Part shown: in pieces, positions 1 to 53,664 of the stretch
Layout of the letters: each line of letters starts with the position of its first letter
Numbering within the stretch: position 1 is the stretch's first letter
Source of the DNA: Caldicellulosiruptor owensensis OL
GTDB lineage: Bacteria > Bacillota > Thermoanaerobacteria > Caldicellulosiruptorales > Caldicellulosiruptoraceae
Reading direction: 5' to 3'
Length of the DNA stretch: 64,000 nt
Assembly: GCF_000166335.1 (NCBI RefSeq)
Contig: NC_014657.1
Span: forward strand, 1,718,501-1,782,500
Position numbers and translations under genes: made by a program
Notes under the pieces: model-generated
Database searches by the model: none
Seen by the model: only the letters and a program-made list of their open reading frames with translations
What the model was told of the DNA's origin: nothing

Positions 1-51
1 GTAGGACTTCGAATCCTGTGGTCGGGGGTTCGACTCCCCCCGGGCGTGCCA
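1..51 (+). tRNA. tRNA-Arg (anticodon TCG), 3' part only
   Basis: The window opens inside a tRNA at about position 26. The anticodon stem-loop reads with TCG at the centre of a seven-base loop. It is followed by a five-base variable loop, a perfect GGGGG/CCCCC T-stem, the 3' acceptor strand CGGGCGT, a G discriminator and an encoded CCA. The 5' half lies outside the window. This 3' end doubles as the attachment site of the element that follows. Confidence 0.85.
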
Positions 52-123
52 AGTAGGATGTATCAAGGATTGAAGATGGTAGTAAAAGTTGGAAATTGGG
101 ATTAAAAAGCAGCAAGTCCTGTG
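4..123 (+). repeat. Left attachment repeat (att), 120 bp
   Basis: Bases 4-123 are repeated exactly at 9217-9336, an offset of 9213. The first 48 bases are the tRNA-Arg 3' end; the remaining 72 are the integrase-proximal end of the element. Tyrosine integrases of this kind use a tRNA 3' end as core and regenerate the tRNA on integration. That the repeat continues beyond the tRNA implies the copy at 9217 starts a second element of the same family. Confidence 0.85.
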
Positions 124-222
124 GGGAATGTATACCACAGGATTTTCACACTACCACAGGACTACCATACAGCAAGCCATGACCACCAATCGCAATAAAA
201 AATGCGAGAGGTGGTTTTTATT

Positions 223-1155
223 ATGCCCAAAAGAAGCATTGTTAAGCTGGATTGGCAAGAAGCGTTGCAACAATTCTTATTTTTTAAGCGTGCCGTGGGA
301 AGAAGTGAATTAACGCTTAGGGACTATGAGTATCACATAACGCACTTCTTTAAGCTTTATCCTAACTGCTTCCATGATGAACAGCAACTTAAAAAGTGTT
401 TGTTAGAGTATCTTTCCCAACCTGTCAAACCTGCAACCTACAATTTAAGGTTGACCTACCTTAAAGCCTTTTTCAAATGGTGTGTTGAGGAGAACATTCT
501 CAAATCCAATCCTTTAGAAGGACTTCCTAAGAAGAAAGCTGAAGGGCGAATTGTCAACATTGACACAGAGATTTTGGAAAAACTTTTGAAGTTACCAGAT
601 AAAAACACATTTTGCGGTTTGCGTGATTATGCTTTGATTTTGCTAACGTTGGACACAGGGATAAGACCAAAGGAAGCCTTCTCCCTCTTAATTGAACATT
701 TTGACTTTAAGACGTTACAAGTTTTTATTCCCAGCGACGCAGCAAAAACAAGAGTGTCAAGGGTGCTGCCCATCCTACCAGTTACCGCAAACGCAGTAAA
801 GAAGCTGATAGCAGTAAGACATCCTGAATGGGACGATAAAGTACCTGTCTTTTGCACAGTAACAGGTAGACCACTCACACGTGACATATGGCACGATAGA
901 ATGGAAATGTACAGTAAAAAGTTGGGAGTCAAGATAAGACCGTATGATTTGCGACATACTTTCGCATTATTGTATCTCAAAAACGGTGGTTATGAATTAA
1001 GCCTTCAAAAAACACTGGGACATACCACGTTGGAGATGACCAAGCGGTATGTGCATTTTACACAAAATGACCTGCGAGAAATTAACAATTCAGCTTCCCC
1101 GCTAAACATGTTATTGCAGCAAACAAAGAGAGTCAAGAACAAGTTGACAAAATAA
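223..1155 (+). CDS. int: Tyrosine recombinase / integrase (phage-type XerC/D fold)
   Basis: This 310-residue site-specific recombinase would integrate and excise the element at the tRNA-Arg gene. The N-terminal SAM-like core-binding domain covers about residues 1-100 (NLRLTYLKAFFKWCVEENIL). The catalytic domain has the first Arg in LDTGIRPKEA, the conserved block RPYDLRHTFA (H-x-x-R region), GHTTLEMTKRY (His) and the nucleophile Tyr in KRYVHF. I start at ATG 223 behind GAGGTGG, matching the start of the paralogue at 9428, not the longer frame from 202. It lies 100 bp inside the left att, the usual place for an integrase. All catalytic positions look intact, so it is probably functional. Confidence 0.95.
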   Translation: MPKRSIVKLDWQEALQQFLFFKRAVGRSELTLRDYEYHITHFFKLYPNCFHDEQQLKKCLLEYLSQPVKPATYNLRLTYLKAFFKWCVEENILKSNPLEGLPKKKAEGRIVNIDTEILEKLLKLPDKNTFCGLRDYALILLTLDTGIRPKEAFSLLIEHFDFKTLQVFIPSDAAKTRVSRVLPILPVTANAVKKLIAVRHPEWDDKVPVFCTVTGRPLTRDIWHDRMEMYSKKLGVKIRPYDLRHTFALLYLKNGGYELSLQKTLGHTTLEMTKRYVHFTQNDLREINNSASPLNMLLQQTKRVKNKLTK

Positions 1156-1190
1156 GCCTTGCCCTAACAGTTAAGGGCAAGGCTTTTGTT
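1155..1190 (+). terminator. Intrinsic terminator between convergent int and zinc-finger gene
   Basis: An 11-bp perfect stem (AGCCTTGCCCT with AGGGCAAGGCT) around an 8-base loop is followed by TTTGTTTTG. It overlaps the int stop codon. The second element has the equivalent hairpin at 10357-10386. Confidence 0.8.
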
Positions 1191-1230
1191 TTGTGGGAAT
1201 TGAATTTAGGTCATATGATGGGGTTAACAT

Positions 1231-2160
1231 TTATTTTACCGCACGTTTTTGGGCATAAACCCTTTGTTTTGCGTTTTTACTTCTACACGTTGGACAATAA
1301 TTTTTCCTTCCTTTCTGCGGTTTTCGGTCTTTACGTATATATGGCTGATGGCATAAATCACAAACACATAGTTGTTTTGCATTGCTTAAACATTGGGCAA
1401 GTTCGACCCAAATTTTTGAAAAACATCCCCAGCCAGTGTCAATATAGAGAGTGGGATAGCTTTCTTTTCCCCATTCTAACCATAAAGTTGTACCTGTCGC
1501 TTCTAACCAGCCATTAACTGTAGAGATTAAAAAGAAACGTTGTATTGAAATATCCCATTCACTCTCTTTTTCACACCAACCTATTGCTTTCCAAAGAGAT
1601 GGAGGAACGGGCTTCCCTTCAACAAGCAAAGCGGCAGCGTCTAATATTGCTTTTACTTGTTTTGCGTAAAAGCGGTAGAACGAAAGCGGTTCAGCAGGAA
1701 ACCATAAGCAATAGTCTATACATCCGTCGTACCCAACTTTTATTGACGATGGCAAAGGTGCCCAAATGCATTCTCTATGCTTAACACATAGCCACAATGG
1801 TCCCCATTTGGCAACAAATTCTAATATTTCATCATCGTTTGCGTCGGCTAACTTCACAAAGTCGTCTAACACACCTTCAACATTTTCTTTTTTCTGCCAG
1901 CCTATATCAGCTAACAAATTTTCTCCATTTTCAGAAGCCAAAATAAAAGGGTCATTTTTAACAGGCAATAATTTTTGCCATTCTTCGGGTATTGGGAACA
2001 TAATACAATCTAAAAGCTTATTATCGATATTTGGCCATTTCCCCAGCCTTACATCAGGCGGCACCCAAACACCAGAAGTTTTTGGAACATAGGCTTTTAG
2101 ACGAGAATTCTCATCTGTAAAGTTTACTAAATCCCATTCATCCCGTTCAGTCCATCTCAT
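1231..2160 (-). CDS. Element-borne C-terminal zinc-finger protein of unknown function
   Basis: The 309-residue protein converges on the integrase. Most of the sequence is unrecognised and Trp-rich. Residues about 265-300 form a treble-clef-like zinc finger, CDLC - 22 residues - CPTC, followed by a basic tail (RSKNAKQRVYAQKRAVK), as in CGNR-type nucleic-acid-binding proteins. The ATG is preceded by AGGGGG. The gene is divergent from the XRE regulator at 2264, with tandem operator-like repeats in between, so the two are probably co-regulated. A gene with the same position, orientation and C-terminal finger lies beside the second integrase (10390-11106), which ties it to the integration module. 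Function is not known; a DNA-binding directionality or immunity role would be inference. Confidence 0.6.
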   Translation of the reverse strand: MRWTERDEWDLVNFTDENSRLKAYVPKTSGVWVPPDVRLGKWPNIDNKLLDCIMFPIPEEWQKLLPVKNDPFILASENGENLLADIGWQKKENVEGVLDDFVKLADANDDEILEFVAKWGPLWLCVKHRECIWAPLPSSIKVGYDGCIDYCLWFPAEPLSFYRFYAKQVKAILDAAALLVEGKPVPPSLWKAIGWCEKESEWDISIQRFFLISTVNGWLEATGTTLWLEWGKESYPTLYIDTGWGCFSKIWVELAQCLSNAKQLCVCDLCHQPYIRKDRKPQKGRKNYCPTCRSKNAKQRVYAQKRAVK

Positions 2161-2173
2161 TTTTTTATCCCCC

Positions 2174-2195
2174 TTTACCTGAAATTTTACCTGAA
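2174..2195. promoter_or_regulatory. Tandem operator-like repeat in the divergent XRE/zinc-finger promoter region
   Basis: The decamer TTTACCTGAA occurs twice, at 2174-2183 and 2186-2195, one turn plus two bases apart. It sits just upstream of the zinc-finger gene and opposite the XRE gene. It is a natural candidate for the binding site of the adjacent XRE protein. Confidence 0.4.
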
Positions 2196-2263
2196 GTAAT
2201 TCCTTTTAGCAAGAGTTTTTGGTAACATTAAAAGCAGAAAATAAAAAAGGAGGGGAAGTAAAG

Positions 2264-2485
2264 ATGACAAAACTTGAATTTTTAAGACGTCAAAGAGGGC
2301 TTACACAAACCAAATTAGGGTTTGCAATTGGAGTGAATCCTAACCTACTTAGTCAGATTGAAAGGGGTTGGCGAAAGCCGTATCCGAAATTGTTGCAAGG
2401 ACTGGCGAATTATTTCGGTGTGCCAGTAGAAGAACTTGCCAATCCCGATGGCACATTAAAGGAGGTGGACAGTAAAACGGCATAA
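2264..2485 (+). CDS. XRE-family helix-turn-helix transcriptional regulator
   Basis: The 73-residue protein is a Cro/CI-type helix-turn-helix: LRRQRGLTQTKLGFAIGVN forms helices 1-3, and LLSQIERGWRKPYPKLL the recognition helix and next helix, followed by LANYFGVPVEELANP. ATG 2264 follows AAGGAGGGG. It has no effector or peptidase domain, so it is a simple repressor of the element, probably acting on its own divergent promoter. A partly palindromic GTGG/CCAC hairpin follows the stop (about 2491-2508). Confidence 0.9.
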   Translation: MTKLEFLRRQRGLTQTKLGFAIGVNPNLLSQIERGWRKPYPKLLQGLANYFGVPVEELANPDGTLKEVDSKTA

Positions 2486-2617
2486 AAAAAAAAGTGGCTT
2501 AAAACCACCTAAATGAACAAGTAATTAATCCCCTTTTGATTTTGATTGTAACACAACCAAATGTCAAATGCTTTCTGAAAATGCGATAAGTTTTCAAACA
2601 TGAAAGGAGGCGTCTTT

Positions 2618-2944
2618 ATGGTCTTCAAGGTTTACAACAAATGTTTAGGACGTGAGGTTACTGCAGGACACTTCAATTCAAAAACAAAAGTCTTTTACAA
2701 AGCCGTTTCTACACACAGCAAGCTATTAGTCCTAAATGCGTATGGAATCGAAAAGTGCGTTGTTGAAGAACTCAAAGAAAGAGGTTGCAAACTCATACAA
2801 ATAGAGGAAATTAACACCGGCAACATGTATGAAATAGATTTTGCCAAGTTTATTGAAAAAGCTATTTTGCGTACATTTGGCAATTCTACCGAACAGTATT
2901 ATTTGCCGCTGAAATACTTTACAAAGGTTGAAAAGGCTTCTTAA
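2618..2944 (+). CDS. Hypothetical protein upstream of primase-helicase
   Basis: The 108-residue protein begins at ATG 2618 behind a strong AAAGGAGG, rather than at the in-frame ATG at 2600. I do not recognise a family; it is predicted soluble, with alternating beta and helical segments and two cysteines. It is the first gene of the replication operon, and its stop lies 82 bp before the primase-helicase start, the gap holding the first of two near-identical hairpins. A role in replication is possible from position only. Confidence 0.6.
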   Translation: MVFKVYNKCLGREVTAGHFNSKTKVFYKAVSTHSKLLVLNAYGIEKCVVEELKERGCKLIQIEEINTGNMYEIDFAKFIEKAILRTFGNSTEQYYLPLKYFTKVEKAS

Positions 2945-2952
2945 AATCCTTC

Positions 2953-2982
2953 GCTGCCCTATTCGGTCATCGGTAGGGCGGC
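2953..2982 (+). other. Intercistronic RNA hairpin, copy 1
   Basis: GCTGCCCT pairs with AGGGCGGC (8 bp including one G-U) around a 14-base loop containing CGG and ATCGG. No U-run follows. The same stem and loop pattern recurs at 4859-4888, so this is a repeated structured element of the operon rather than a terminator. Confidence 0.6.
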
Positions 2983-3026
2983 TTGATTGGTTTTTAAATC
3001 AGCAAAACAAAAAGGAGGGTCTCAAA

Positions 3027-4850
3027 GTGGAAACAAAAGACATTGTAAAGGCAATCAAAGAGAAAATTGATATTGTTGACTACATAGGACGGTTTTTGTC
3101 CTTACAAAAGGAAGGTAGCAGTTATAAAGCTATTTGTCCTTTTCATCCCGACAGGAACCCATCATTCTACATTAAACCCAACGAACAGTTTTTTCATTGC
3201 TTTGGTTGTGGAACTGGAGGCGACATTATTAGATTTGCCCAGCTTTACCACAACATATCCTTTGGGGAGGCGGTAAAAATGTTGGCTGCAGAAATTGGGC
3301 TGTCTATTAGCGATGACAAACAGGAAGAAAACAAGAAACAAACGGAAAAAATTCCTTACGAACAACTTATAACTTACGTGGAAAAATGTCAAGCAAACGC
3401 AAGTTTGGCGAAAAGTTATTTCGCAAGTAGGGGAATTTCTGAAAAGTTTATGGAGAAATATAATGTAGGATTTGACGTTGAAAACAATGCAGTTGTCTTC
3501 CCAATCGTACAGGATGGAAAAGTAATCTGTTGGACACGTCGCAACTTAAACAATCCAGACCGCAAATATGATTTCCCACAAGGTTACAATGCAATACCTT
3601 TCAATCTGGATGTACTCAAAGATGACAAGCAAACCAACGTTTTTATCACTGAAGGCGTCTTTGACGCTTTGACCATCGAGGAAGCCATTGGACAACCCGC
3701 GATTGCATTGAATAGTTGCACCAATCAGCAAAACTTTTTGCAAGAATTGAATCGAATCAAGCCGCAAGGTAAAAAATTCTTCATTTTGTTTGACAACGAC
3801 CACGACGGAAAAGAACAAGCGAAAAAACTTTTTGACAAAATGAAAAAAGTTTACGATGTAGCACTTTGCAATTGGAATAATAACCTACCCTACAAAGATG
3901 TTAACGAATTCTGGATTGCAGACCCTGCAAATTGCACAAAATTTTTGCTTTGGCAATTAAAGACAGCTTTCTACCCATACGCCTTGATTAGCATTGCACC
4001 ATCTTATGAGGAGTTCATCAAGTCAGAAAAGTTTGCAACTATACCTACTGGATTCAAAATGCTTGATGATGTCTTAAATGGTGGTCTTATCGCTGGCAAC
4101 CTATACGTCTTCGGTGCAAAGCCCAGCGTTGGTAAAACAACATTTTTGTTGCAGCTTATAGACAACTTCTTACAACAGGACTATGAATGTGTTTTCCTAT
4201 CCGCAGAAATGCCCAAAGAAGAGATTCTGACACGAATCTTTTGCCGCGAGTATGGGCTAAAAAGGGCGAACGTTGCAGTACCTGCTTTTGACTTTTATCG
4301 CAAACTTAGGACACGAACGGCAGAAGCAGAAGAAATACAGGAGTACATGGATGTTGTCAAAGATTACACCAAAAAGTATGCGTTCAAGCTGCATATCGTG
4401 GAAGAACAAAAGCTTGAAAGCATACCTTACATCCTTGAACGTTTATCAAAGCCCATCTTATTCATTGATTACTTGCAACTTCTACAACCTGCTAAACCAT
4501 ATCAAAGCGACAAACAGCGTGTCGACCTGATAATGGAAGAGTTGTTCGAGATTAAGAACCACTTCCTAATACCGGTTGTTGCCATTAGCAGCCTTAATCG
4601 CGAGAATTACGACAAAGACGATATAACAGCATTCAAAGAAAGCGGGTCAATCGAATATAGCACAGCCGCAGCGTTTTTAATGCAAAGAGACCACGACCGA
4701 GTTGTCCACGACAAGTACAAAGGTAATGGCTACACAATTACCTTCAAGTGTGTCAAAAACCGATACGGCCGCATAGGGGACGATATCACAATGCGTTTTT
4801 GGGGCGGGATTTATTTGTTTGAAGAAATAGACGACGACAACAGCTTATAA
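3027..4850 (+). CDS. Bifunctional primase-helicase (CHC2 zinc finger, Toprim, DnaB-type ATPase)
   Basis: This 607-residue fusion would prime and unwind DNA at the element's origin. Residues about 1-90 are a CHC2 zinc-binding domain (CPFHPDRNPSF, then FHCFGCGTGGD). A Toprim domain follows, with Glu in VFITEGVFDAL and the acidic pair in FILFDNDHDG. The C-terminal half is a RecA/DnaB helicase with Walker A GAKPSVGKTTF, Walker B ILFIDYLQLL and a motif 4-like FKESGSIEYS. GTG 3027 is chosen because AAAGGAGG precedes it; the open frame extends upstream to 2928 without a ribosome site. Such fusions are typical of phages, satellites and small integrative elements, not of host DnaG/DnaB, which are separate. 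All catalytic motifs are present. Confidence 0.92.
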   Translation: METKDIVKAIKEKIDIVDYIGRFLSLQKEGSSYKAICPFHPDRNPSFYIKPNEQFFHCFGCGTGGDIIRFAQLYHNISFGEAVKMLAAEIGLSISDDKQEENKKQTEKIPYEQLITYVEKCQANASLAKSYFASRGISEKFMEKYNVGFDVENNAVVFPIVQDGKVICWTRRNLNNPDRKYDFPQGYNAIPFNLDVLKDDKQTNVFITEGVFDALTIEEAIGQPAIALNSCTNQQNFLQELNRIKPQGKKFFILFDNDHDGKEQAKKLFDKMKKVYDVALCNWNNNLPYKDVNEFWIADPANCTKFLLWQLKTAFYPYALISIAPSYEEFIKSEKFATIPTGFKMLDDVLNGGLIAGNLYVFGAKPSVGKTTFLLQLIDNFLQQDYECVFLSAEMPKEEILTRIFCREYGLKRANVAVPAFDFYRKLRTRTAEAEEIQEYMDVVKDYTKKYAFKLHIVEEQKLESIPYILERLSKPILFIDYLQLLQPAKPYQSDKQRVDLIMEELFEIKNHFLIPVVAISSLNRENYDKDDITAFKESGSIEYSTAAAFLMQRDHDRVVHDKYKGNGYTITFKCVKNRYGRIGDDITMRFWGGIYLFEEIDDDNSL

Positions 4851-4854
4851 TCTC

Positions 4855-4892
4855 ACACGCTGCCCTGTGCGGAAATCGGCAGGGCGGCGTGT
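4855..4892 (+). other. Intercistronic RNA hairpin, copy 2
   Basis: A stem of about 12 bp has the same core as copy 1 (GCTGCCCT with AGGGCGGC, again one G-U) and a 14-base loop with the shared CGG and ATCGG blocks. It begins just after the primase-helicase stop and lies about 40 bp before the next start codon. No U-run follows. Confidence 0.6.
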
Positions 4893-4929
4893 TACAATGC
4901 AAAAGAAAAACTGTTAGGGGGTGCTTGCA

Positions 4930-5730
4930 ATGAACAATTCAAATGGTGAGAACTTTTATATCACGGACGCAAATTTGCCTGTCAATATCTTTTCCCTACT
5001 GGAGGATAGTATACAACCCAGACAAGGCAAGGAATGCAAGTTTGTTTATGAGTATGAGACAAATGACGGCGGGAAAGTGCAAATTGGCACAAACTACTAC
5101 ATGTTGACACCAGCCGATATTAACACACTCTATATCTTGACCACCTATAGGCAGGAAACAGGACAAAAAGGGGACACCTTTGAGATTCCGCTAAAGTACA
5201 TCATGGAAAAGCGAGGAATGGACGTAAACCAGCCAGAAAATATCCGTTTAGTTTTGCAATCACTTGACCGTTTAATGATGACCAAAATTGTGGTCGAAAG
5301 ATACGGCTTTATCAACGAAAAGACATTTAGGCGAGATGTAGCAAAATTTACACTCTTGCCTTCCTACAGGATATCACAGAAGGGCACCAAAGGACGTGGC
5401 TATAAAACAAAACTAACCGTCACGCTTGCCAAAGAAATTTGCTACAACCTTGATAATGGATATGTAGCACGTGGTGATTTGGACATTGCTAAACAGCTTG
5501 TCAAACATAAAATAGCACACAGACTTTATCATTTCCTAATGGCTAAGTGCACACGCAACAAGACCTACCGACGTAATTTTGCACAGTTTGTAAAAGAAGA
5601 CATTTGCCCTGAGTTGCCATTAGAGGAAGGCAAGGAAAAAGTCATAAACGCACTTATCAAGCTGGAAAGTATGGGGTTAATATCCTACAAAATCGACAAA
5701 GACGTCATATGCATAAATATACGCAAATAG
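4930..5730 (+). CDS. Plasmid-type replication initiator (Rep, winged-helix) candidate
   Basis: The 266-residue protein has the layout of winged-helix initiators: a segment at residues 50-130 (MLTPADINTLYILTTYRQ, then IRLVLQSLDRLMMTKIVV) and a second winged-helix-like region toward the C-terminus (HRLYHFLMAKC, then VINALIKLESMGLISY). I do not have a motif that proves the family. The assignment rests on this layout, on the preceding primase-helicase, and on phased iterons that begin inside its last codons. ATG 4930 follows TTAGGGGG; the GTG at 4921 overlaps that site. It probably opens the origin and loads the helicase. A purely regulatory protein is the main alternative. Confidence 0.6.
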   Translation: MNNSNGENFYITDANLPVNIFSLLEDSIQPRQGKECKFVYEYETNDGGKVQIGTNYYMLTPADINTLYILTTYRQETGQKGDTFEIPLKYIMEKRGMDVNQPENIRLVLQSLDRLMMTKIVVERYGFINEKTFRRDVAKFTLLPSYRISQKGTKGRGYKTKLTVTLAKEICYNLDNGYVARGDLDIAKQLVKHKIAHRLYHFLMAKCTRNKTYRRNFAQFVKEDICPELPLEEGKEKVINALIKLESMGLISYKIDKDVICINIRK

Positions 5731-5851
5731 TTGCATAAGTATACGTAAAAACACGGCTGGTATCGGCTGGGAAAACCATAGTATATACCTGCAGAAAACC
5801 ATAGTATATACCTATCGAAAACCATAGTATATACCTGCAAAAAACCATAGG
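5711..5851 (+). repeat. Iterons: candidate replication origin of the element
   Basis: Two families of tandem direct repeats lie directly 3' of rep. Type A is two 22-bp units (5711-5732 and 5733-5754) starting GCATAA.TATACG. Type B is three 23-bp units (5771-5793, 5794-5816, 5817-5839) starting GAAAACCATAGTATATACC, plus a partial fourth unit to 5850. The 22-23 bp period, close to two helical turns, and the location next to a Rep-like gene are the signature of an iteron origin. Both families share a CATA-GTATA core. Confidence 0.7.
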
Positions 5852-5926
5852 GAAGAAAATGGTAAATGCAGTTAGGACAAGGCTTTGCGGGCACAAAATC
5901 GGGTAAAATTAAAACTAAAATTAAAA

Positions 5927-5950
5927 AGGGTGAGTTTAACAACTCACCCT
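5927..5950 (-). terminator. Perfect hairpin, terminator-like on the minus strand
   Basis: AGGGTGAGTT and AACTCACCCT form a 10-bp stem with loop TAAC. On the minus strand it is followed by TTTTTAATTTT. On the plus strand no U-run follows. It would stop antisense transcription running into the iterons. Confidence 0.5.
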
Positions 5951-6038
5951 AATAGGAAAAAGCTGGATTTGAATTTATGCAAATTCCCGCCGCTGCATAA
6001 ACTTGAAGCCAGATATTGGCAAGGAAGGTGTTGTTGGA

Positions 6039-6755
6039 ATGCGACCGTGGGAGTGGCTTGACCTAATTGAAGAGTCCAGAAATACTGAAGGCAATGTAGG
6101 TGTTGCTGCTGGCGTGCCGACGTTTGTGGCTGGTAGGAAAGGCAAGATTGAAGCGGTGTTTGTTAGGCAAGCCGACCAGAACAAACAAGTCAACCGTACA
6201 ATTCGACTTATGACTGAACTTGAGATAAGGGAACTTGCGGCAAAGCAAAAGCCTTCCTACTTTGCAAAGCTGAAAAAGAATGCATATGACAAGCGACTTT
6301 GCAGCAAAGAAGGTCATTTCTGGGCTATGCTTGAAAAGTTATCACAAGAATTTGGAAAGAAAAATCCCAGTGAAATTGTTTTGCGGCTTTACACAAAGTT
6401 TGCAAAGTGTGCACAGCGAGAATGGGAGATTGAAAAGCTGCAAACTTCCCTAAATGCAAAATGTCCTGTATGTGGCAGTATAGATTTCGTGTTTGTCGAG
6501 AAAGGACAGCAAAAAGGGTTTGTTTGCTTGCAGTGTTTAAAAACAACGGGCAGGGTTGAATTTGCAATTAATGTCAAAATCGAAAATGATGTGTCAGAAT
6601 GGACAGAACGCATAACATTAGGAACAGGCTACCTTGTCCCTAACAGCAGATGTACACGTTGCGGTGCGGTTTTTAAATGGTTTAGCAGCGACAAGTGGGA
6701 AGGCTGGCTTTGTAGTGATTGCGGCGAGGACTTTATTGAGTGTAAAACGTGCTAA
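6039..6755 (+). CDS. Zinc-ribbon protein of unknown function
   Basis: The 238-residue protein begins at ATG 6039 behind AAGGAAGG; a TTG start at 6003 lacks a site. The N-terminal 150 residues are charged and unrecognised. Two zinc ribbons follow: CPVC...CLQC at about residues 146-173 and CTRCGAVF...CSDCGEDF at about 213-232, with a last CKTC. It probably binds nucleic acid or a protein partner. It follows the origin and is closed by its own terminator at 6783, so it may end the replication operon or be transcribed alone. Confidence 0.6.
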   Translation: MRPWEWLDLIEESRNTEGNVGVAAGVPTFVAGRKGKIEAVFVRQADQNKQVNRTIRLMTELEIRELAAKQKPSYFAKLKKNAYDKRLCSKEGHFWAMLEKLSQEFGKKNPSEIVLRLYTKFAKCAQREWEIEKLQTSLNAKCPVCGSIDFVFVEKGQQKGFVCLQCLKTTGRVEFAINVKIENDVSEWTERITLGTGYLVPNSRCTRCGAVFKWFSSDKWEGWLCSDCGEDFIECKTC

Positions 6756-6782
6756 AAGGCTTTTAAACGTGCGTTGATTAGC

Positions 6783-6815
6783 AAGGACGTATTCAAATAC
6801 GTCCTTTGTGTTTTT
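6783..6815 (+). terminator. Intrinsic terminator after the zinc-ribbon gene
   Basis: AAGGACGTAT pairs with the ATACGTCCTT arm across a short loop and is followed by TGTGTTTTT. It ends the left transcription block of the element. Confidence 0.75.
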
Positions 6816-6898
6816 CGTTCAAAAGAAACCGGTTTCATATAGGGCACTGGGGTATTTGCGTTGTGACAAGACAGCCAAGCAAAAAAGCCAGAACATAC

Positions 6899-6935
6899 CC
6901 ATTAGGGATGGGATATTGTCACCCATCCCTAATGG
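6899..6935. promoter_or_regulatory. 14-bp inverted repeat upstream of the late-type promoter
   Basis: CCATTAGGGATGGG (6899-6912) is perfectly repeated in inverse at 6922-6935 with a 9-base spacer. The decamer GTTGTGACAA flanks it at 6860-6869 and 6960-6969, exactly 100 bp apart, and the second copy overlaps the -35 of the next promoter. The arrangement suggests an operator complex. Confidence 0.5.
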
Positions 6936-6962
6936 CTGTCATTACAACTTTGTAGCTGTGTT

Positions 6963-6992
6963 GTGACAATTTGACGCTGAGGGCGATATAAT
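6963..6992 (+). promoter_or_regulatory. Sigma-A-type promoter of the TerS-like/sigma gene pair
   Basis: The -35 box is GTGACA (6963-6968), the spacer 18 bp and the -10 TATAAT (6987-6992). The start codon at 7012 follows GGAGG. Confidence 0.6.
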
Positions 6993-7011
6993 TGAATTGG
7001 AGGTGTTTAGA

Positions 7012-7512
7012 ATGCTGCGTTATGATTGGGACGTGTTGAAGCGGGAATTTTTGACAGGCAGTTATAAGTCTTTGAAAGAGTTTGCAGAGGCAAAAGGTGT
7101 TCATTATGGCACTTTGCGAAACAAAGCCAAGGACTGGTTGAAAGAGAGACAACAAATCACACAAGAAAAAAATCAAGCCATTTTGGAGAAGACGTTAGAA
7201 CGGCAGATAGAGGAAGCGGTTGATTATAACGCATGGCATGTTAGGGTTTGGGATAAATTTTTGCAGCTTGTTTGGGCTGCTTTGCATGATGAGAAAACGA
7301 TAAAGACCAAGGACGGCAAATACAATGTGTATGTGCTGGAAAGATTAGCTAATGTGATGGAGAAGGTACAGAAGGGGCAGCGATTGGCGTTGGGACTGGA
7401 CGAGAACAAAGAAGACCACAGCGAACAACTACTGGGCAGGATTAGAGAGATTGTAGCTGCCCTATGGGAAGACGACCAAGAAGACAACGATAAGGAAGTA
7501 GGATATTGTTAA
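7012..7512 (+). CDS. HTH protein resembling a phage terminase small subunit (TerS-like)
   Basis: The 166-residue protein starts at ATG 7012 after GGAGG. Residues 1-45 (DWDVLKREFLTGSYKSLKEF, then GVHYGTLRNKAKDWLKER) match the N-terminal HTH pattern seen in many small terminase subunits of Firmicute phages, where a helix-turn-helix is followed by a helical oligomerisation region. The rest is helical, with an acidic C-terminus (EDDQEDNDKE). No large terminase gene is nearby. A stand-alone TerS is a hallmark of phage-inducible islands, where it redirects packaging. The family call is by pattern only; a generic HTH regulator is the alternative. Confidence 0.45.
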   Translation: MLRYDWDVLKREFLTGSYKSLKEFAEAKGVHYGTLRNKAKDWLKERQQITQEKNQAILEKTLERQIEEAVDYNAWHVRVWDKFLQLVWAALHDEKTIKTKDGKYNVYVLERLANVMEKVQKGQRLALGLDENKEDHSEQLLGRIREIVAALWEDDQEDNDKEVGYC

Positions 7513-7563
7513 ACGGCAAGTAGTCTTTTGTCAAGGGGATGGCATTTTGCGAGGTGCTTTTTG

Positions 7564-8472
7564 ATGGTTGAAACGCTAACCAGTGTCCAAACGCAAAAGC
7601 TGGTAGCTGACAACATCAAGCTTGTCTACCATGTTGCGAACAAGTTTATGCCATGTCCTAAAGGCTATTGCTATGAAGTGGATGACCTTGTGAGTGAGGG
7701 GTACATTGGGCTTGTTGTAGCAGCAAGAAACTATGACCCAGAGAAGGGAAGCTTCTCTACCTATGCGTGCAAGGTGATTGAAAGCAAAATAAGGAAAAGC
7801 TTGCCAAAGTACAGGCTTACTTCAGTGTCGCTGGATAGTCCGCTAACAAAGGATGAGGAAGAGGAAACAACAGTTGGCGATGTGATTGACAGCGGTTTTT
7901 CTGTGGAGAATGAGGTAATAAGGCGAGAGATTGTAGCAAGATTGCAAAAGTATTTAGCAGACCTAACCGACGATGAGAGGAAACAAGTTTTGAAGTACAT
8001 CCACACAGGCAAAATATCAGATGGCAAACTGTACAAAACAGCAAGGAAGAAGCTATTGCGTGCGATGAAGAAGGACCAATTAGAGGCGGACCTTGACGAC
8101 CTAACAGTTTTCATATCCTGCCCAGCGGTGCATGTAGTAGCAGGCACTGGCTACTTCTCATCCCCAGTAGAAACCACAGTGTTGGCGAGAGAGGAAAAGA
8201 GAAAGCAACTTGAGATTTTGTCCTCAATCCCCCAATTAGACAAGCTGAGGGTTTTAAAGCAACAAGGCGAACAGGACAGAATGAAGCTTCTTGCCGCAAA
8301 ATGGGAAGTGGAAGAGTTTATCGAACGGCACATCGACAAGCTGTCAATCAACCACGTCAGGCTTCTTCAGGACTATTTTGTTTGGTGCCATTCCCACTTA
8401 GCGATGGTACAAAAGTATGGTAGTGGCTACAAAGCACAAATCAAGCGTGTGGTCAAAAAGTTGATGGGATGA
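7564..8472 (+). CDS. Element-encoded sigma-70-like factor with an unusual C-terminal extension
   Basis: The 302-residue protein has a clear sigma-70 region 2 at about residues 8-85: LVADNIKLVYHVANKFM, then DDLVSEGYIGLVVAARNYDP and FSTYACKVIESKIRKSL, with the -10-binding helix pattern. A divergent region 3/4-like part follows (LADLTDDERKQVL). The last 130 residues (from about SCPAVHVVAG) do not resemble sigma region 4 and are long and charged. ATG 7564 follows GAGGTG. It lies 51 bp after the TerS-like gene and shares its promoter. It may redirect host RNA polymerase to element or helper-phage promoters; without a normal region 4 it could also be an anti-host or co-regulator protein. Confidence 0.75.
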   Translation: MVETLTSVQTQKLVADNIKLVYHVANKFMPCPKGYCYEVDDLVSEGYIGLVVAARNYDPEKGSFSTYACKVIESKIRKSLPKYRLTSVSLDSPLTKDEEEETTVGDVIDSGFSVENEVIRREIVARLQKYLADLTDDERKQVLKYIHTGKISDGKLYKTARKKLLRAMKKDQLEADLDDLTVFISCPAVHVVAGTGYFSSPVETTVLAREEKRKQLEILSSIPQLDKLRVLKQQGEQDRMKLLAAKWEVEEFIERHIDKLSINHVRLLQDYFVWCHSHLAMVQKYGSGYKAQIKRVVKKLMG

Positions 8473-9216
8473 AGAGTAGCAAAGAAAATGTCACATTTTT
8501 TTACGTTTTTGCGACCCTTTAAAAGCCAGCGAGGCATTGGAAATTCTGATATAAAAGGCGTTTAGATGTGCGGGAATGTAACATTGAAAACGACAAAAAC
8601 CATGCAAACTGTCCGAAAATGTTCGAAAGAAGGTGGGGCTTATGGGCTTATTGAAAACGACAAAAGCCAGGCAACTGGGCAGTTTGGGATTCAAGGTTTT
8701 GCAATTGTGGAAATACTGCATTTTTAGGGTTTGCAGCATAGTTTGGGTCAAAAAAAGTCAAAAATTTTGCAAGGTTTCAATTTTGTCTTGCCCTAAAAGC
8801 TGGCAGTATTCCCATTTTTACCATCGTTTTAGAGACGCAATTGAACACTAAGACGTGTTTAATATTCCCTATCCCTTTTTGTGCGTTGTAAGGGCTTTTA
8901 GATGGCTTTGAGACAAGGGCAAAGACACAAAAGCAGAAAATACAAGACTTTGACCGCTGCGGTCAAAGTTTGAAACTACATATCTTCTAAGCTTTTCCTA
9001 ATTGTATGGGCAACTCTTTAGGAGAAGCAAAAATTTGACAGGGCATAGAGAACACACTATTGGTATTGACTAATTACTTGTTGGAGATTATGATAATTGA
9101 CAAGTTTGCACCAAAGGATTGAGATGTCTTAAGTACAAAGTCCCTTAGACAATTTTAGAGTCAAATTGGTGGACATGGCTTGCTTGAAGCATTTGTTGTA
9201 ATGTTTGCTACTTTTT
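8473..9216. other. Non-coding right end of the element
   Basis: About 740 bp without a convincing gene. It contains an imperfect 28-bp direct repeat (8584-8611 and 8651-8678, sharing TTGAAAACGACAAAA) and a perfect 23-bp palindrome at 8947-8969 centred on a T, with arms ACTTTGACCGC. A short frame at 8642-8851 behind GAAGGTGG has no recognisable content. The region may hold excision or packaging signals. Confidence 0.5.
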
Positions 9217-9336
9217 GGACTTCGAATCCTGTGGTCGGGGGTTCGACTCCCCCCGGGCGTGCCAAGTAGGATGTATCAAGGATTGAAGATGGTAGTAAAA
9301 GTTGGAAATTGGGATTAAAAAGCAGCAAGTCCTGTG
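9217..9336 (+). repeat. Right attachment repeat / left end of second element
   Basis: This is an exact copy of 4-123. The first 48 bases reproduce the tRNA-Arg(TCG) 3' end from the anticodon loop to CCA without a 5' half, so it is an att remnant, not a tRNA gene. The 72 bases beyond the tRNA part lead into a second integrase, as in the left copy. Confidence 0.85.
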
Positions 9337-13398: not shown

Positions 13399-15864
13399 TC
13401 AGACTTTTAGGTAAAATCCTGTGCGCTCAAAAAATTCCTCAGATATTCTTTTCAAAACATCTTCGTCTACATCTTCACTTAATTTTATTTTTACCTCTCT
13501 TGTAGTTGGATAAATACTGGGATTTTTTTGAATTTCTATATTGTATTTTGATAAAATTTCACTCAATATATTTATCATTTCAACTTGATTTATTGTCTGG
13601 GAAACTCTTATATCCCATCCGGTCTTCTCCGAAAGTTGAACAAGCTTGTCTTTATATTTTTCGCCTACAAAAGGTGTTACAAAGGAAAGTTCAATGTATT
13701 TTCCACCTTCCTTAATACTTTTTTTATAAATCTTATCTTTCTCATTTTCAAAATAAAGGTCAATCAAAAGCAGTGCTTTATTTTGCTCCATCTTGTTTTT
13801 TTGTAAGTTTATACCTTCTTCTTGCTTATTTTCTTCAACATCAAATATCAAACTAACCCCGGTTTCTTCCAAAAACTTTTCAGATAAATTTTTCATTTGC
13901 TCAAATTTTTCTTTTATTCTTATCATTATAGCATTTATCACTGGATTATATGAAAACTTTAATAATTTAACGTTATAATTTTTAAGAAGATTATTAACAT
14001 ACTCCGAAGCATATGTCAGATTAATATTTGGATTTATATCAACCTTCCAGAGAGTTAATTTCTCAAATTCCTCAATTTTTTCCTCAAGCCTTTTTGCTAC
14101 CTGAGGAAAATTAAAGTAAAATGTAACTACCTTGTTTTCATTGTTCATACCGACCTTGTACAGTCCATATTCAGCAAACATTTCAAAAGCAAGCTCTCGC
14201 ATCCTGTTCTGCTCCATAGGCTTTGGCTTTAGTTTTTCTTCAAGCTCTTGTGCAGATAAAATTCTAAACAGGTATGGTTTTCTGGGATTTTGTTCAAAAT
14301 AAACAGATTTCTTTAAAAGTTCAAATACTCTGTTTATCTCATCTTTTTCTAATAAATCTTTGCCATTCCAAATCAGAATAGCATGTTCAGCTGTTATATG
14401 ATTGGATTCCTGCTTGTTTTCCACAAGGTACTGCCACAAAAGCTTCAGATTCTCTTCATTTAAAAGTTCTTGATTGTTCAGTGTTTTGACATTAAAAAAT
14501 GATAATTGTTTTCTTGGTCTTTCAATTGATATTATATTAACTTCACCATTTTGCGGAACAACTATATTTGCATCAAGTTCTTTTACAGCCATATCCGAAA
14601 TTTGCGAAATCGCATCTTCACTACCATGTACAAAAATGACCGTCCTCGGTCTGAGCGTCGCTAAAAATCCAAGTATTTTATCTCTGTCACTATGTGCCGA
14701 AAGCCCGTACTTTTCTACCCTGCACTTTACTTCATATTCCTTGCCATTTAGATTAATCTTTTTTTCACTTTCTGGAAGTTCAGCAAGCTCTAAAAGTTTT
14801 CTTCCTGGTGCTTCTTCATCTTGATACCCTGTTATTGCAACCAGAGCATTTTGACTTTGCACAATCTTTTCAGCGTAAAACAAAGAAGGTCCCCCTGTTA
14901 GCATACCAGAACTTGAGATTATTACACATGGGTCTGAAGAAGAAATTATCTCCTCTCTTTGTTTTTTGTCAGAGACCACATTTATATTATCAGCTAAGAA
15001 TATCTCCTCACCTTTTAGTACCCTTTTATAGTACCGCGATGACAGATAAGTAGGATTGTTCCTGTAAACTCTTATAACCTCTCTTACCATTCCGTCAATG
15101 AACACATTAAAACTAACCTTTCTTTTTTTCATATAATTTCTCAAAATAAGAATAACTTCTTGTGCTCTTCCTATTGCAAATGCAGGAATTAAGACTTTAC
15201 CTCCCTGTGATATAACCTCAAAAATAGTATTAAAAAGTCTTTCTTCTTCAAAACTTCTGTTTGTGTGAAGCCTGTCACCATAAGTTGATTCGCATATGAC
15301 AATATCAGGTCTAATCTTTGGAACTGAAGCTCTGTCAACAGTAAGCTGCTTGTCTGCTGAAAAATCACCCGTGTAAAGAATGCTACCTTCCTGAGTCTGA
15401 ATAAATATCATAGAAGCACCGAGGATATGACCTGCCGGGAAAAAGGTCACCCTGATTCCTTCAACAGGTTCAAATGTGTAGTTAAATCCGTAAGTAAGAG
15501 TTCTATCAAGCAAATCTTCTACATTTTTTTCAGCATAAATAGGTATTTCATCCTCTGCAATTTCCATTATCCTCAAACTATCATATAAAAGCACCTTTAT
15601 TAAATCTTTTGTAGGCTGGTTTGTATAAAAGAAAATATGAGGATATTCTCGTGCAATAAGAGGAAGGCTTCCTATATGGTCAAGGTGAGCATGGGAAATA
15701 AGACAAACATCAACACCGCCAAGCTCGCGAAGAAGTTGTAAGTTAGGAAGTTTATCCTCTTTCATTCTTATTCCAGAATCAATCAAGATATTCTTGCCAC
15801 CAGCTTTAATTAAAACACAAGAAGCACCAACCTCTTTTGCACCACCCAAGAATACTATCTCCAT
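13399..15864 (-). CDS. Beta-CASP metallo-beta-lactamase RNase with a long C-terminal extension
   Basis: The 821-residue protein has an N-terminal MBL/beta-CASP nuclease core of about 450 residues: motif 1 FLGGAKEVG, motif 2 HAHLDHIG, FFPAGHILGAS (motif 3), YTGDFS (motif 4), then CESTYGDR, a beta-CASP insert, and SAHSDRDKILGF with VHGSED. This is the CPSF/RNase J fold, acting on RNA in the cytoplasm. The last 370 residues are unusual and appear to contain related alpha/beta units (IMIRIKEKFEQMKNLSEKFL and VKIKLSEDVDEDVLKRISEEF) that look KH-like. It lies 19 bp downstream of the EamA gene. Exo- or endonuclease activity cannot be told from sequence. Confidence 0.85.
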   Translation of the reverse strand: MEIVFLGGAKEVGASCVLIKAGGKNILIDSGIRMKEDKLPNLQLLRELGGVDVCLISHAHLDHIGSLPLIAREYPHIFFYTNQPTKDLIKVLLYDSLRIMEIAEDEIPIYAEKNVEDLLDRTLTYGFNYTFEPVEGIRVTFFPAGHILGASMIFIQTQEGSILYTGDFSADKQLTVDRASVPKIRPDIVICESTYGDRLHTNRSFEEERLFNTIFEVISQGGKVLIPAFAIGRAQEVILILRNYMKKRKVSFNVFIDGMVREVIRVYRNNPTYLSSRYYKRVLKGEEIFLADNINVVSDKKQREEIISSSDPCVIISSSGMLTGGPSLFYAEKIVQSQNALVAITGYQDEEAPGRKLLELAELPESEKKINLNGKEYEVKCRVEKYGLSAHSDRDKILGFLATLRPRTVIFVHGSEDAISQISDMAVKELDANIVVPQNGEVNIISIERPRKQLSFFNVKTLNNQELLNEENLKLLWQYLVENKQESNHITAEHAILIWNGKDLLEKDEINRVFELLKKSVYFEQNPRKPYLFRILSAQELEEKLKPKPMEQNRMRELAFEMFAEYGLYKVGMNNENKVVTFYFNFPQVAKRLEEKIEEFEKLTLWKVDINPNINLTYASEYVNNLLKNYNVKLLKFSYNPVINAIMIRIKEKFEQMKNLSEKFLEETGVSLIFDVEENKQEEGINLQKNKMEQNKALLLIDLYFENEKDKIYKKSIKEGGKYIELSFVTPFVGEKYKDKLVQLSEKTGWDIRVSQTINQVEMINILSEILSKYNIEIQKNPSIYPTTREVKIKLSEDVDEDVLKRISEEFFERTGFYLKV

Positions 15865-53448: not shown

Positions 53449-53664
53449 TTCAATATACCTCCATATAAAAACTAAAAAAGGCAGAACAGAGTCTGCCTTT
53501 TTTTTGCTTGAAAAAATTTTGTTTTCCAAGCTCATATGCAGTCCCTGTTCTTCAAAAATCAGGGCAGCTTTTTAATATTTTCAGTTTTAAACTTTTAAAT
53601 ATTAAGAATCTTAAAAGTATGGCTCGACAATCTTTTCGATGCCATCTTTTTATAATTAATTATA
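53449..53664 (-). promoter_or_regulatory. Structured leader of the pan operon with attenuator
   Basis: Reading on the minus strand from a -10 TATAAT at 53659-53664, the leader holds hairpin 1 (53619-53645, ATGGC/GCCAT plus TCGA/TCGA with a bulged A), hairpin 2 (53538-53568, CCCTG/CAGGG plus outer pairs with an unpaired A), and a strong intrinsic terminator (AAAAAAGGCAGA..TCTGCCTTTTTT, 53476-53502) just before panG. The layout of tandem A-bulged stems before panB-type genes recalls the published 'pan' RNA motif. Confidence 0.5.

Follow-up and report, generated by a model that had tools for sequence, protein, structure and literature searches.

The 64,000-nt stretch of DNA analysed here (the window) carries two copies of a small hairpin among the replication genes of an integrated element, and these belong to a previously undescribed conserved RNA structure, a new candidate family of structured cis-acting RNA that lies outside the named systems. 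The explanation that we favour, with somewhat more belief than disbelief, is that the twin hairpins are cis-acting RNA in the polycistronic replication mRNA of phage-satellite-like integrative elements and set the expression of the replication genes. The broader reading, that the sense strand forms a cis-acting RNA recognised by a protein, seems quite likely from the sequence comparisons, and such a site probably serves for control. That its action would be at elongation, processing or stability is, in our estimation, an evenly balanced proposition.

Fold and conservation of the twin hairpins

Hairpin 1 (HP1, core GCTGCCCTATTCGGTCATCGGTAGGGCGGC) occupies positions 2953-2982 of the plus strand (feature span 2951..2984); it starts 8 nt past the stop of the upstream ORF and ends 44 nt before the start codon of the primase-helicase gene (GTG 3027). 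Hairpin 2 (HP2, core GCTGCCCTGTGCGGAAATCGGCAGGGCGGC) occupies 4859-4888 of the same strand (feature span 4855..4892), starts 8 nt past the primase-helicase stop and ends 41 nt before the rep start (ATG 4930). Both were recovered by pattern, by fold and by the R2 covariance model described below, with 55.2 bits (E 3e-13) for HP1 and 53.9 bits (E 8e-13) for HP2. The sequence-only reading had placed two hairpins before these genes, each with an 8-bp stem, a U-G pair and the blocks CGG and ATCGG, and all of this is present in both copies. Its 8-bp stem was right, but the 14-base loop that it placed above the stem is itself structured. With G·U pairs included the stem has 10 bp, the additions to the 8 being one A-U/G-C pair and one U-G, and above it the apex consists of a one-base 5' bulge, 2-3 further pairs (C-G, G-C, G-U/G-C) and a tiny NNA loop. 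HP1 folds as a 10-bp stem with two U-G pairs, a 5' bulge U, the pairs C-G/G-C/G-U and the loop UCA; HP2 has the same core with 4 additional outer pairs, a 5' bulge G and the loop AAA. The fold energies are -21.8 kcal/mol for HP1 (z -3.9 versus shuffled sequence) and -28.5 kcal/mol for HP2 (z -5.7).

With up to 3 mismatches allowed, the 30-nt pattern of the hairpin matches twice in the window, at HP1 and HP2, versus 0 matches expected from window shuffles, and the same pattern finds only these two copies in the whole 2.43-Mb genome. HP1 and HP2 are not chance. An intrinsic terminator or a chance palindrome would be in line with the G+C-rich stem and with the T-rich sequence that follows 2 of the 20 copies (G007a and G010), but the other copies have no U-run, none is expected by chance and the letters of the loop are conserved, so that this explanation is very hard to credit and a general terminator role was rejected. 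The absence of a U-run after either window copy had been remarked on already from the sequence.

When 61 relatives were scanned with the 30-nt pattern, homologous hairpins of meaningful quality were found in the same genus only. Covariance models were then built from 12 sequences (R1) and from 17 (R2), and 18 copies were obtained in 11 of the 12 genomes of the genus at 41-55 bits, the next candidate scoring 18 bits. All 18 lie on integrative elements, and no copy of the motif occurs outside elements in the genus, which argues against its having been copied from a host operator of a kind that the R2 model can find. The only other genus of the family gave no convincing match, and among 398 genomes of the phylum nothing outside the genus exceeded 31.5 bits, the top matches there looking like chance or coding sequence. 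A wider pattern scan of genome contigs gave 29 matches, mostly in high-GC genomes and chance-like. Positions 2900-4950 have no family match in Rfam 15 (gathering score or E <= 5), and no description of the hairpin was found in literature searches.

Across 17 distinct sequences, 99% of cells have the pairing that the proposed fold requires, although sequence counts overstate the independent events, since most of the copies share descent within a single genus. Changes on both sides were observed at 6 pairs, compared with 2.7 in column shuffles of the 17 sequences, and 6 covarying pairs were reached by 2 of 500 shuffles with a 12-pair structure and by 0 of 500 with a 13-pair structure. Sliding the partner by 1-3 columns reduced the pairing to 22-57% (12 pairs) or 24-52% (13 pairs). 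Covariation in favour of one fold across homologs, which is the mark of a structured cis-regulatory RNA, is therefore what these sequences display. The sequence-only reading had suggested a repeated intercistronic RNA and had staked this on a covariance search across related elements; stem pairing is conserved in the homologous elements, and the suggestion survived.

Within the conserved fold, the stem core is free to vary, as GCUGCCC is changed to GCUAUUC, fully compensated, in three genomes where the U-G pairs and the apex are unchanged. The U-G at the fifth column, near the base, never varies (17/17), and the U-A at the tenth column is likewise found in 17/17. Directly below the bulge there is U-G or U-A, the bulge can be any base, the apex pairs are C-G (U-G in two sequences), G-C and G-U (G-C in two sequences), and the A of the loop is fixed. 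On the sense strand, 9 of the 11 deviations from Watson-Crick pairing are G-U and not A-C, and three G-U positions are fixed or nearly so. Since the other strand would have A-C at these wobbles, the sense strand is indicated as the molecule that folds, most simply as mRNA.

The integrated element, its relatives and the viral copies

The window begins within a tRNA gene, the 3' end of which is repeated exactly at 9217-9264, and the integrated element (4..9264, plus strand) is 9.2 kb long. The exact direct repeat of at least 40 bp of the tRNA 3' end (4-51 and 9217-9264) represents the att sites bounding the element. Judged from its gene content (integrase, primase/rep, terminase-small-subunit-like and sigma-like proteins) and its size of 9.2 kb, the element appears to resemble a PICI-like phage-satellite island. 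On the plus strand it encodes a tyrosine integrase (202..1155; PF00589, 2.4e-24), an XRE/Cro-type helix-turn-helix regulator (2264..2485; HTH_3, 2.1e-11) and, upstream of HP1, a small ORF of 108 aa which is found in type A elements only (2618..2944). The predicted structure of the latter (pLDDT 90) resembles PD-(D/E)XK / Holliday-junction-resolvase folds in a weak match (best Z 6.6), and structure comparison gave no hint of RNA binding for this nuclease-like predicted fold. The primase-helicase (3027..4850, plus strand) has a CHC2 zinc finger, a Toprim and a DnaB C-terminal domain (PF01807, 2.7e-31; PF03796, 2e-31; also dnaG and DnaB matches), and no relatives of it were found in viral contigs. 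The putative replication initiator, rep (4930..5730, plus strand), is named from its position and from the tandem iteron-like repeats that follow it; it has no match in Pfam, PHROG or NCBIfam, its homologs among the 398 phylum genomes are confined to the same genus, and its structure prediction (pLDDT 44) was unusable. Downstream of rep, three 34-nt direct repeats with 23-nt spacing (GAAAACCATAGTATATACCT...) at 5771..5850 of the plus strand are likely the replication origin. Further along are a zinc-ribbon protein (6039..6755, plus strand; type A elements only) and a sigma-70 region 2 protein (7528-8472; phrog_351 and TIGR02937 above cut-off) which occurs in both element types and is possibly an element-specific sigma factor; a terminase-small-subunit-like protein is also encoded.

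Every one of the 18 genus copies precedes a replication gene or its remnant (in G002 this was judged from the first codons before an insertion). The following gene varies between primase-helicase, rep, DnaB-type helicase and DUF927/CHC2 primase, which are unrelated replication proteins. Type A elements have the order integrase, XRE, small ORF, hairpin, primase-helicase, hairpin, rep, zinc ribbon and terminator, with the second hairpin missing from G011 and the first from one G005 element. In type B the order is integrase, Uma2-like gene, XRE, in several cases an excisionase-like HTH gene, hairpin, and DnaB-type helicase or DUF927/CHC2 primase, and in several of these elements the replication gene is broken and the hairpin intact. 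The type B elements L050, L055 and L099-L104 all have a Uma2-family (DUF820) gene and an XRE regulator on the opposite strand.

The sequence of the hairpin is better conserved than what surrounds it. HP1 and the copy of the type B element G003 share 94% identity, while their flanks are no more alike than random sequence. In several element pairs a switch from similar to dissimilar sequence falls exactly at the hairpin, with upstream, hairpin and downstream identities of 95%, 100% and 67% for w1/G004, 79%, 97% and 100% for G004/G005, and 88%, 100% and 47% for G001/G006, and module exchange has thus used the hairpin as a joint. These joints could mean that the hairpin is kept merely as shared sequence for exchange of the replication module, which we consider improbable, as such a linker leaves the compensatory changes, the fixed U-G and the fixed apex beside a free stem core unexplained. 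More likely, the joints arose because the site must remain with the replication gene.

Two convincing copies were found in viral contigs, L001 and L120, which come from unrelated phages. The L001 copy matches all 22 specified positions exactly and is followed, after 19 nt, by the start codon of a small phage ORF that has a ribosome-binding site; the copy differs from HP2 at 1 of 28 positions, the free bulge base, and the surroundings share no similarity. The L120 copy (GCUGACCUGUGCGGCAAUCGGCAGGUCGGC) forms 12 of 12 pairs, keeps all invariant letters and adds one new compensatory pair. L120 belongs to a temperate phage, in which the hairpin follows a Cro-like gene by 56 nt and opens an early operon encoding RecT and a nuclease. 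In both viral contigs the gene after the hairpin is not a replication gene, unlike in all genus copies. Two other viral candidates (L114 and L160) lie inside phage ORFs or coding sequence and were taken as chance, a DNA-pattern search of about 2.9 million viral contigs gave no further copy, and the related phage THSA-485A has none. A search of the genus for a helper prophage resembling L001 yielded no more than a distant terminase (33% identity), in the element's own genome, and this genome has no extra hairpin. In the contig IMGVR_UViG_3300016457_001097 (L266, 7773-11007), genes for the type IV CRISPR effectors Csf1, Cas11, Csf2 and Csf3 are followed by one for a CysH-like PAPS-reductase-family protein, and the hairpin lies 20 nt after this CysH-like gene.

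The adjacent replication genes might suggest that the hairpin works as single-stranded DNA, either to load primase (ssi/G4-type) or as a replication hairpin of another kind; DNA, too, can form G-T pairs, and the orientation with the genes is confounded, as the operon runs one way. However, the viral copies are near type IV CRISPR genes or after a Cro-like gene, the hairpin is always on the coding strand and in a gene gap, and the iteron-like repeats at 5771-5850 are a better origin. We rate a DNA site as slightly less probable still than the recombination linker.

Elsewhere in the window, positions 13399-15864 encode an 821-aa beta-CASP metallo-beta-lactamase (CPSF-73/FttA/TTHA0252-like RNase) that has a long additional part at the C-terminus, and a pan RNA motif (RF01749, 47.8 bits) is present on the minus strand at 53535-53648.

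Possible mode of action and binding partner

The mechanism that we propose starts from what the sequences show, namely that the sense strand folds into the 10-bp stem with its one-base 5' bulge, 2-3 bp and tiny loop and that compensatory change keeps the pairing while selected letters are held fixed; the fixed wobble, bulge and apex may together form a recognition site for an RNA-binding factor. Selection both for pairing and for certain letters looks like a site of this kind, and this is why recognition by a protein is preferred. The zinc-finger proteins of the element had been put forward as candidate binders, but the zinc-ribbon protein (6039-6755) occurs in only one of the two hairpin-carrying element types, is absent from type B (half of the elements lack it), and has no clear relative in the two viral contigs, and it was therefore dropped as a general partner. 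Integrase and XRE regulators are the only proteins that recur in every carrier. As nothing is shared beyond these common proteins, the factor would more likely be encoded by the host, such as RNA polymerase with elongation factors, or an RNase, than by the element. It would probably act on transcript elongation, processing or stability, and thereby on expression of the replication and early modules, and not by covering the Shine-Dalgarno sequence.

Most hairpins lie 34-50 nt before the start codon; exceptions are spacings of 19, 61 and 116 nt, and in L120 more than 300 nt separate the hairpin from the next clear start. A few starts misassigned by the script (e.g. G004b and G005d) are ignored here. 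Because the hairpin is usually 34-50 nt before the start, elongation, processing or stability is favoured, only moderately, over a block of initiation. In leader folds the Shine-Dalgarno site was not buried, and with the hairpin outside the immediate ribosome-binding site, simple blocking of it is not favoured. A translational operator in the style of phage coat protein or T4 gp43, in which binding of the hairpin by a replication protein or another protein of the element would shut down translation of primase-helicase and rep jointly, would fit the two copies before two genes of one pathway, and the apex, where two pairs separate the 5' bulge from the small loop, is reminiscent of the MS2 coat-protein operator. 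With hairpin ends up to 116 nt before the start, the distant start in L120 and no element protein common to all carriers, we regard such an operator as rather unlikely.

To a signal for processive antitermination or anti-polarity, which would load a factor on RNA polymerase where early or replication modules begin, as lambda nut/boxB, HK022 put or a LoaP dfn-like hairpin do, we give a similarly low probability. The L120 position after a Cro-like gene mirrors lambda nutR, the presence in unrelated phages fits recognition by host machinery, and the near-invariant UNCG letters are reminiscent of the UNCG-type hairpin to which LoaP binds (PMC12691694). The LoaP suggested by these letters was rejected, as each of the 12 genus genomes has one NusG homolog only, scoring 87-92 bits versus a cut-off of 125 and corresponding to canonical NusG, with no LoaP in any of them. 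Nor is there a conserved terminator between hairpin and next gene, the conserved one being after the zinc-ribbon gene; no boxA-like sequence was seen, and a second copy in mid-operon would be unusual.

An element for mRNA processing or stability, either an intercistronic site for a host RNase like the RNase III sites of the T7 early region or a 5' stabiliser, is in keeping with hairpins that are intercistronic and repeated within one operon, and a promoter-like match ends just before HP1, so that a transcript could start with the hairpin. However, the at most 14 bp below the bulge are short for RNase III, and pure stabilisers need no fixed loop, bulge or wobble letters. Other copies lack the promoter-like match (it is missing in G005a and G007a), and a 5' hairpin born from a promoter was rejected. 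Taken by itself, this explanation too has a low probability.

Returning to a protein-read cis-acting RNA, HP2 and the L001 hairpin differ only at the bulge base in dissimilar surroundings, and it is tempting to speculate, although we think it unlikely and somewhat more so than each of the last three alternatives, that the hairpin is an RNA signal common to phage satellites and phages, recognised either by a factor of a helper phage or by the transcription machinery of the host, by which satellite replication genes are switched on with phage early genes. If so, it would represent an undescribed kind of nut/put-like or helper-sensing RNA. Overall, a new and well-supported structured RNA is described here, which accompanies the replication modules of mobile elements. 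Its signature of fixed wobbles, bulge and apex around a free stem core is unusual and predicts a specific protein partner, and the small size of the hairpin would allow it to serve directly as bait for this partner. The same RNA accompanies very dissimilar replication proteins and extends to two unrelated phages, which indicates that satellites and phages share a control point for replication or early genes.

Comparison with known RNA signals

The coat-protein operator of MS2/R17, a case of RNA-protein recognition, has a 5' bulge, two pairs and a small loop before a replication gene. The hairpin described here shares the bulge, the two pairs and the small loop just before a replication gene; it differs in that its bulge base is free, its loop and stem letters are other ones, no coat-protein relative is found, the carriers are DNA elements and the distance from the start is larger. 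With lambda nut/boxB and HK022 put it has in common a hairpin RNA at the start of a phage early operon beside a Cro-type gene, whereas up to two copies per operon occur here and both stem and apex differ. No boxA-like sequence was seen by eye in the flanks of the hairpins, and no N-like protein was found, such proteins being too short and diverse to exclude.

LoaP is an antitermination factor of Firmicutes, a NusG paralog that binds the dfn/mln leader hairpin of UNCG type (PMC12691694). Like the hairpin in our elements, dfn/mln is small, carries UNCG letters, has a defined place and is conserved in sequence; it lies in the operon leader and is bound by a transcription factor (PMC12691694). Compared with dfn by description only, the UNCG here spans the bulge and makes no closed tetraloop; moreover, the genus has no LoaP, the hairpin is intercistronic and repeated, and in most copies no terminator lies between hairpin and gene. 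The RNase III sites of the T7 early region are similar as repeated intercistronic hairpins in a polycistronic early transcript, while the stem in our elements is much shorter and comes with fixed recognition letters.
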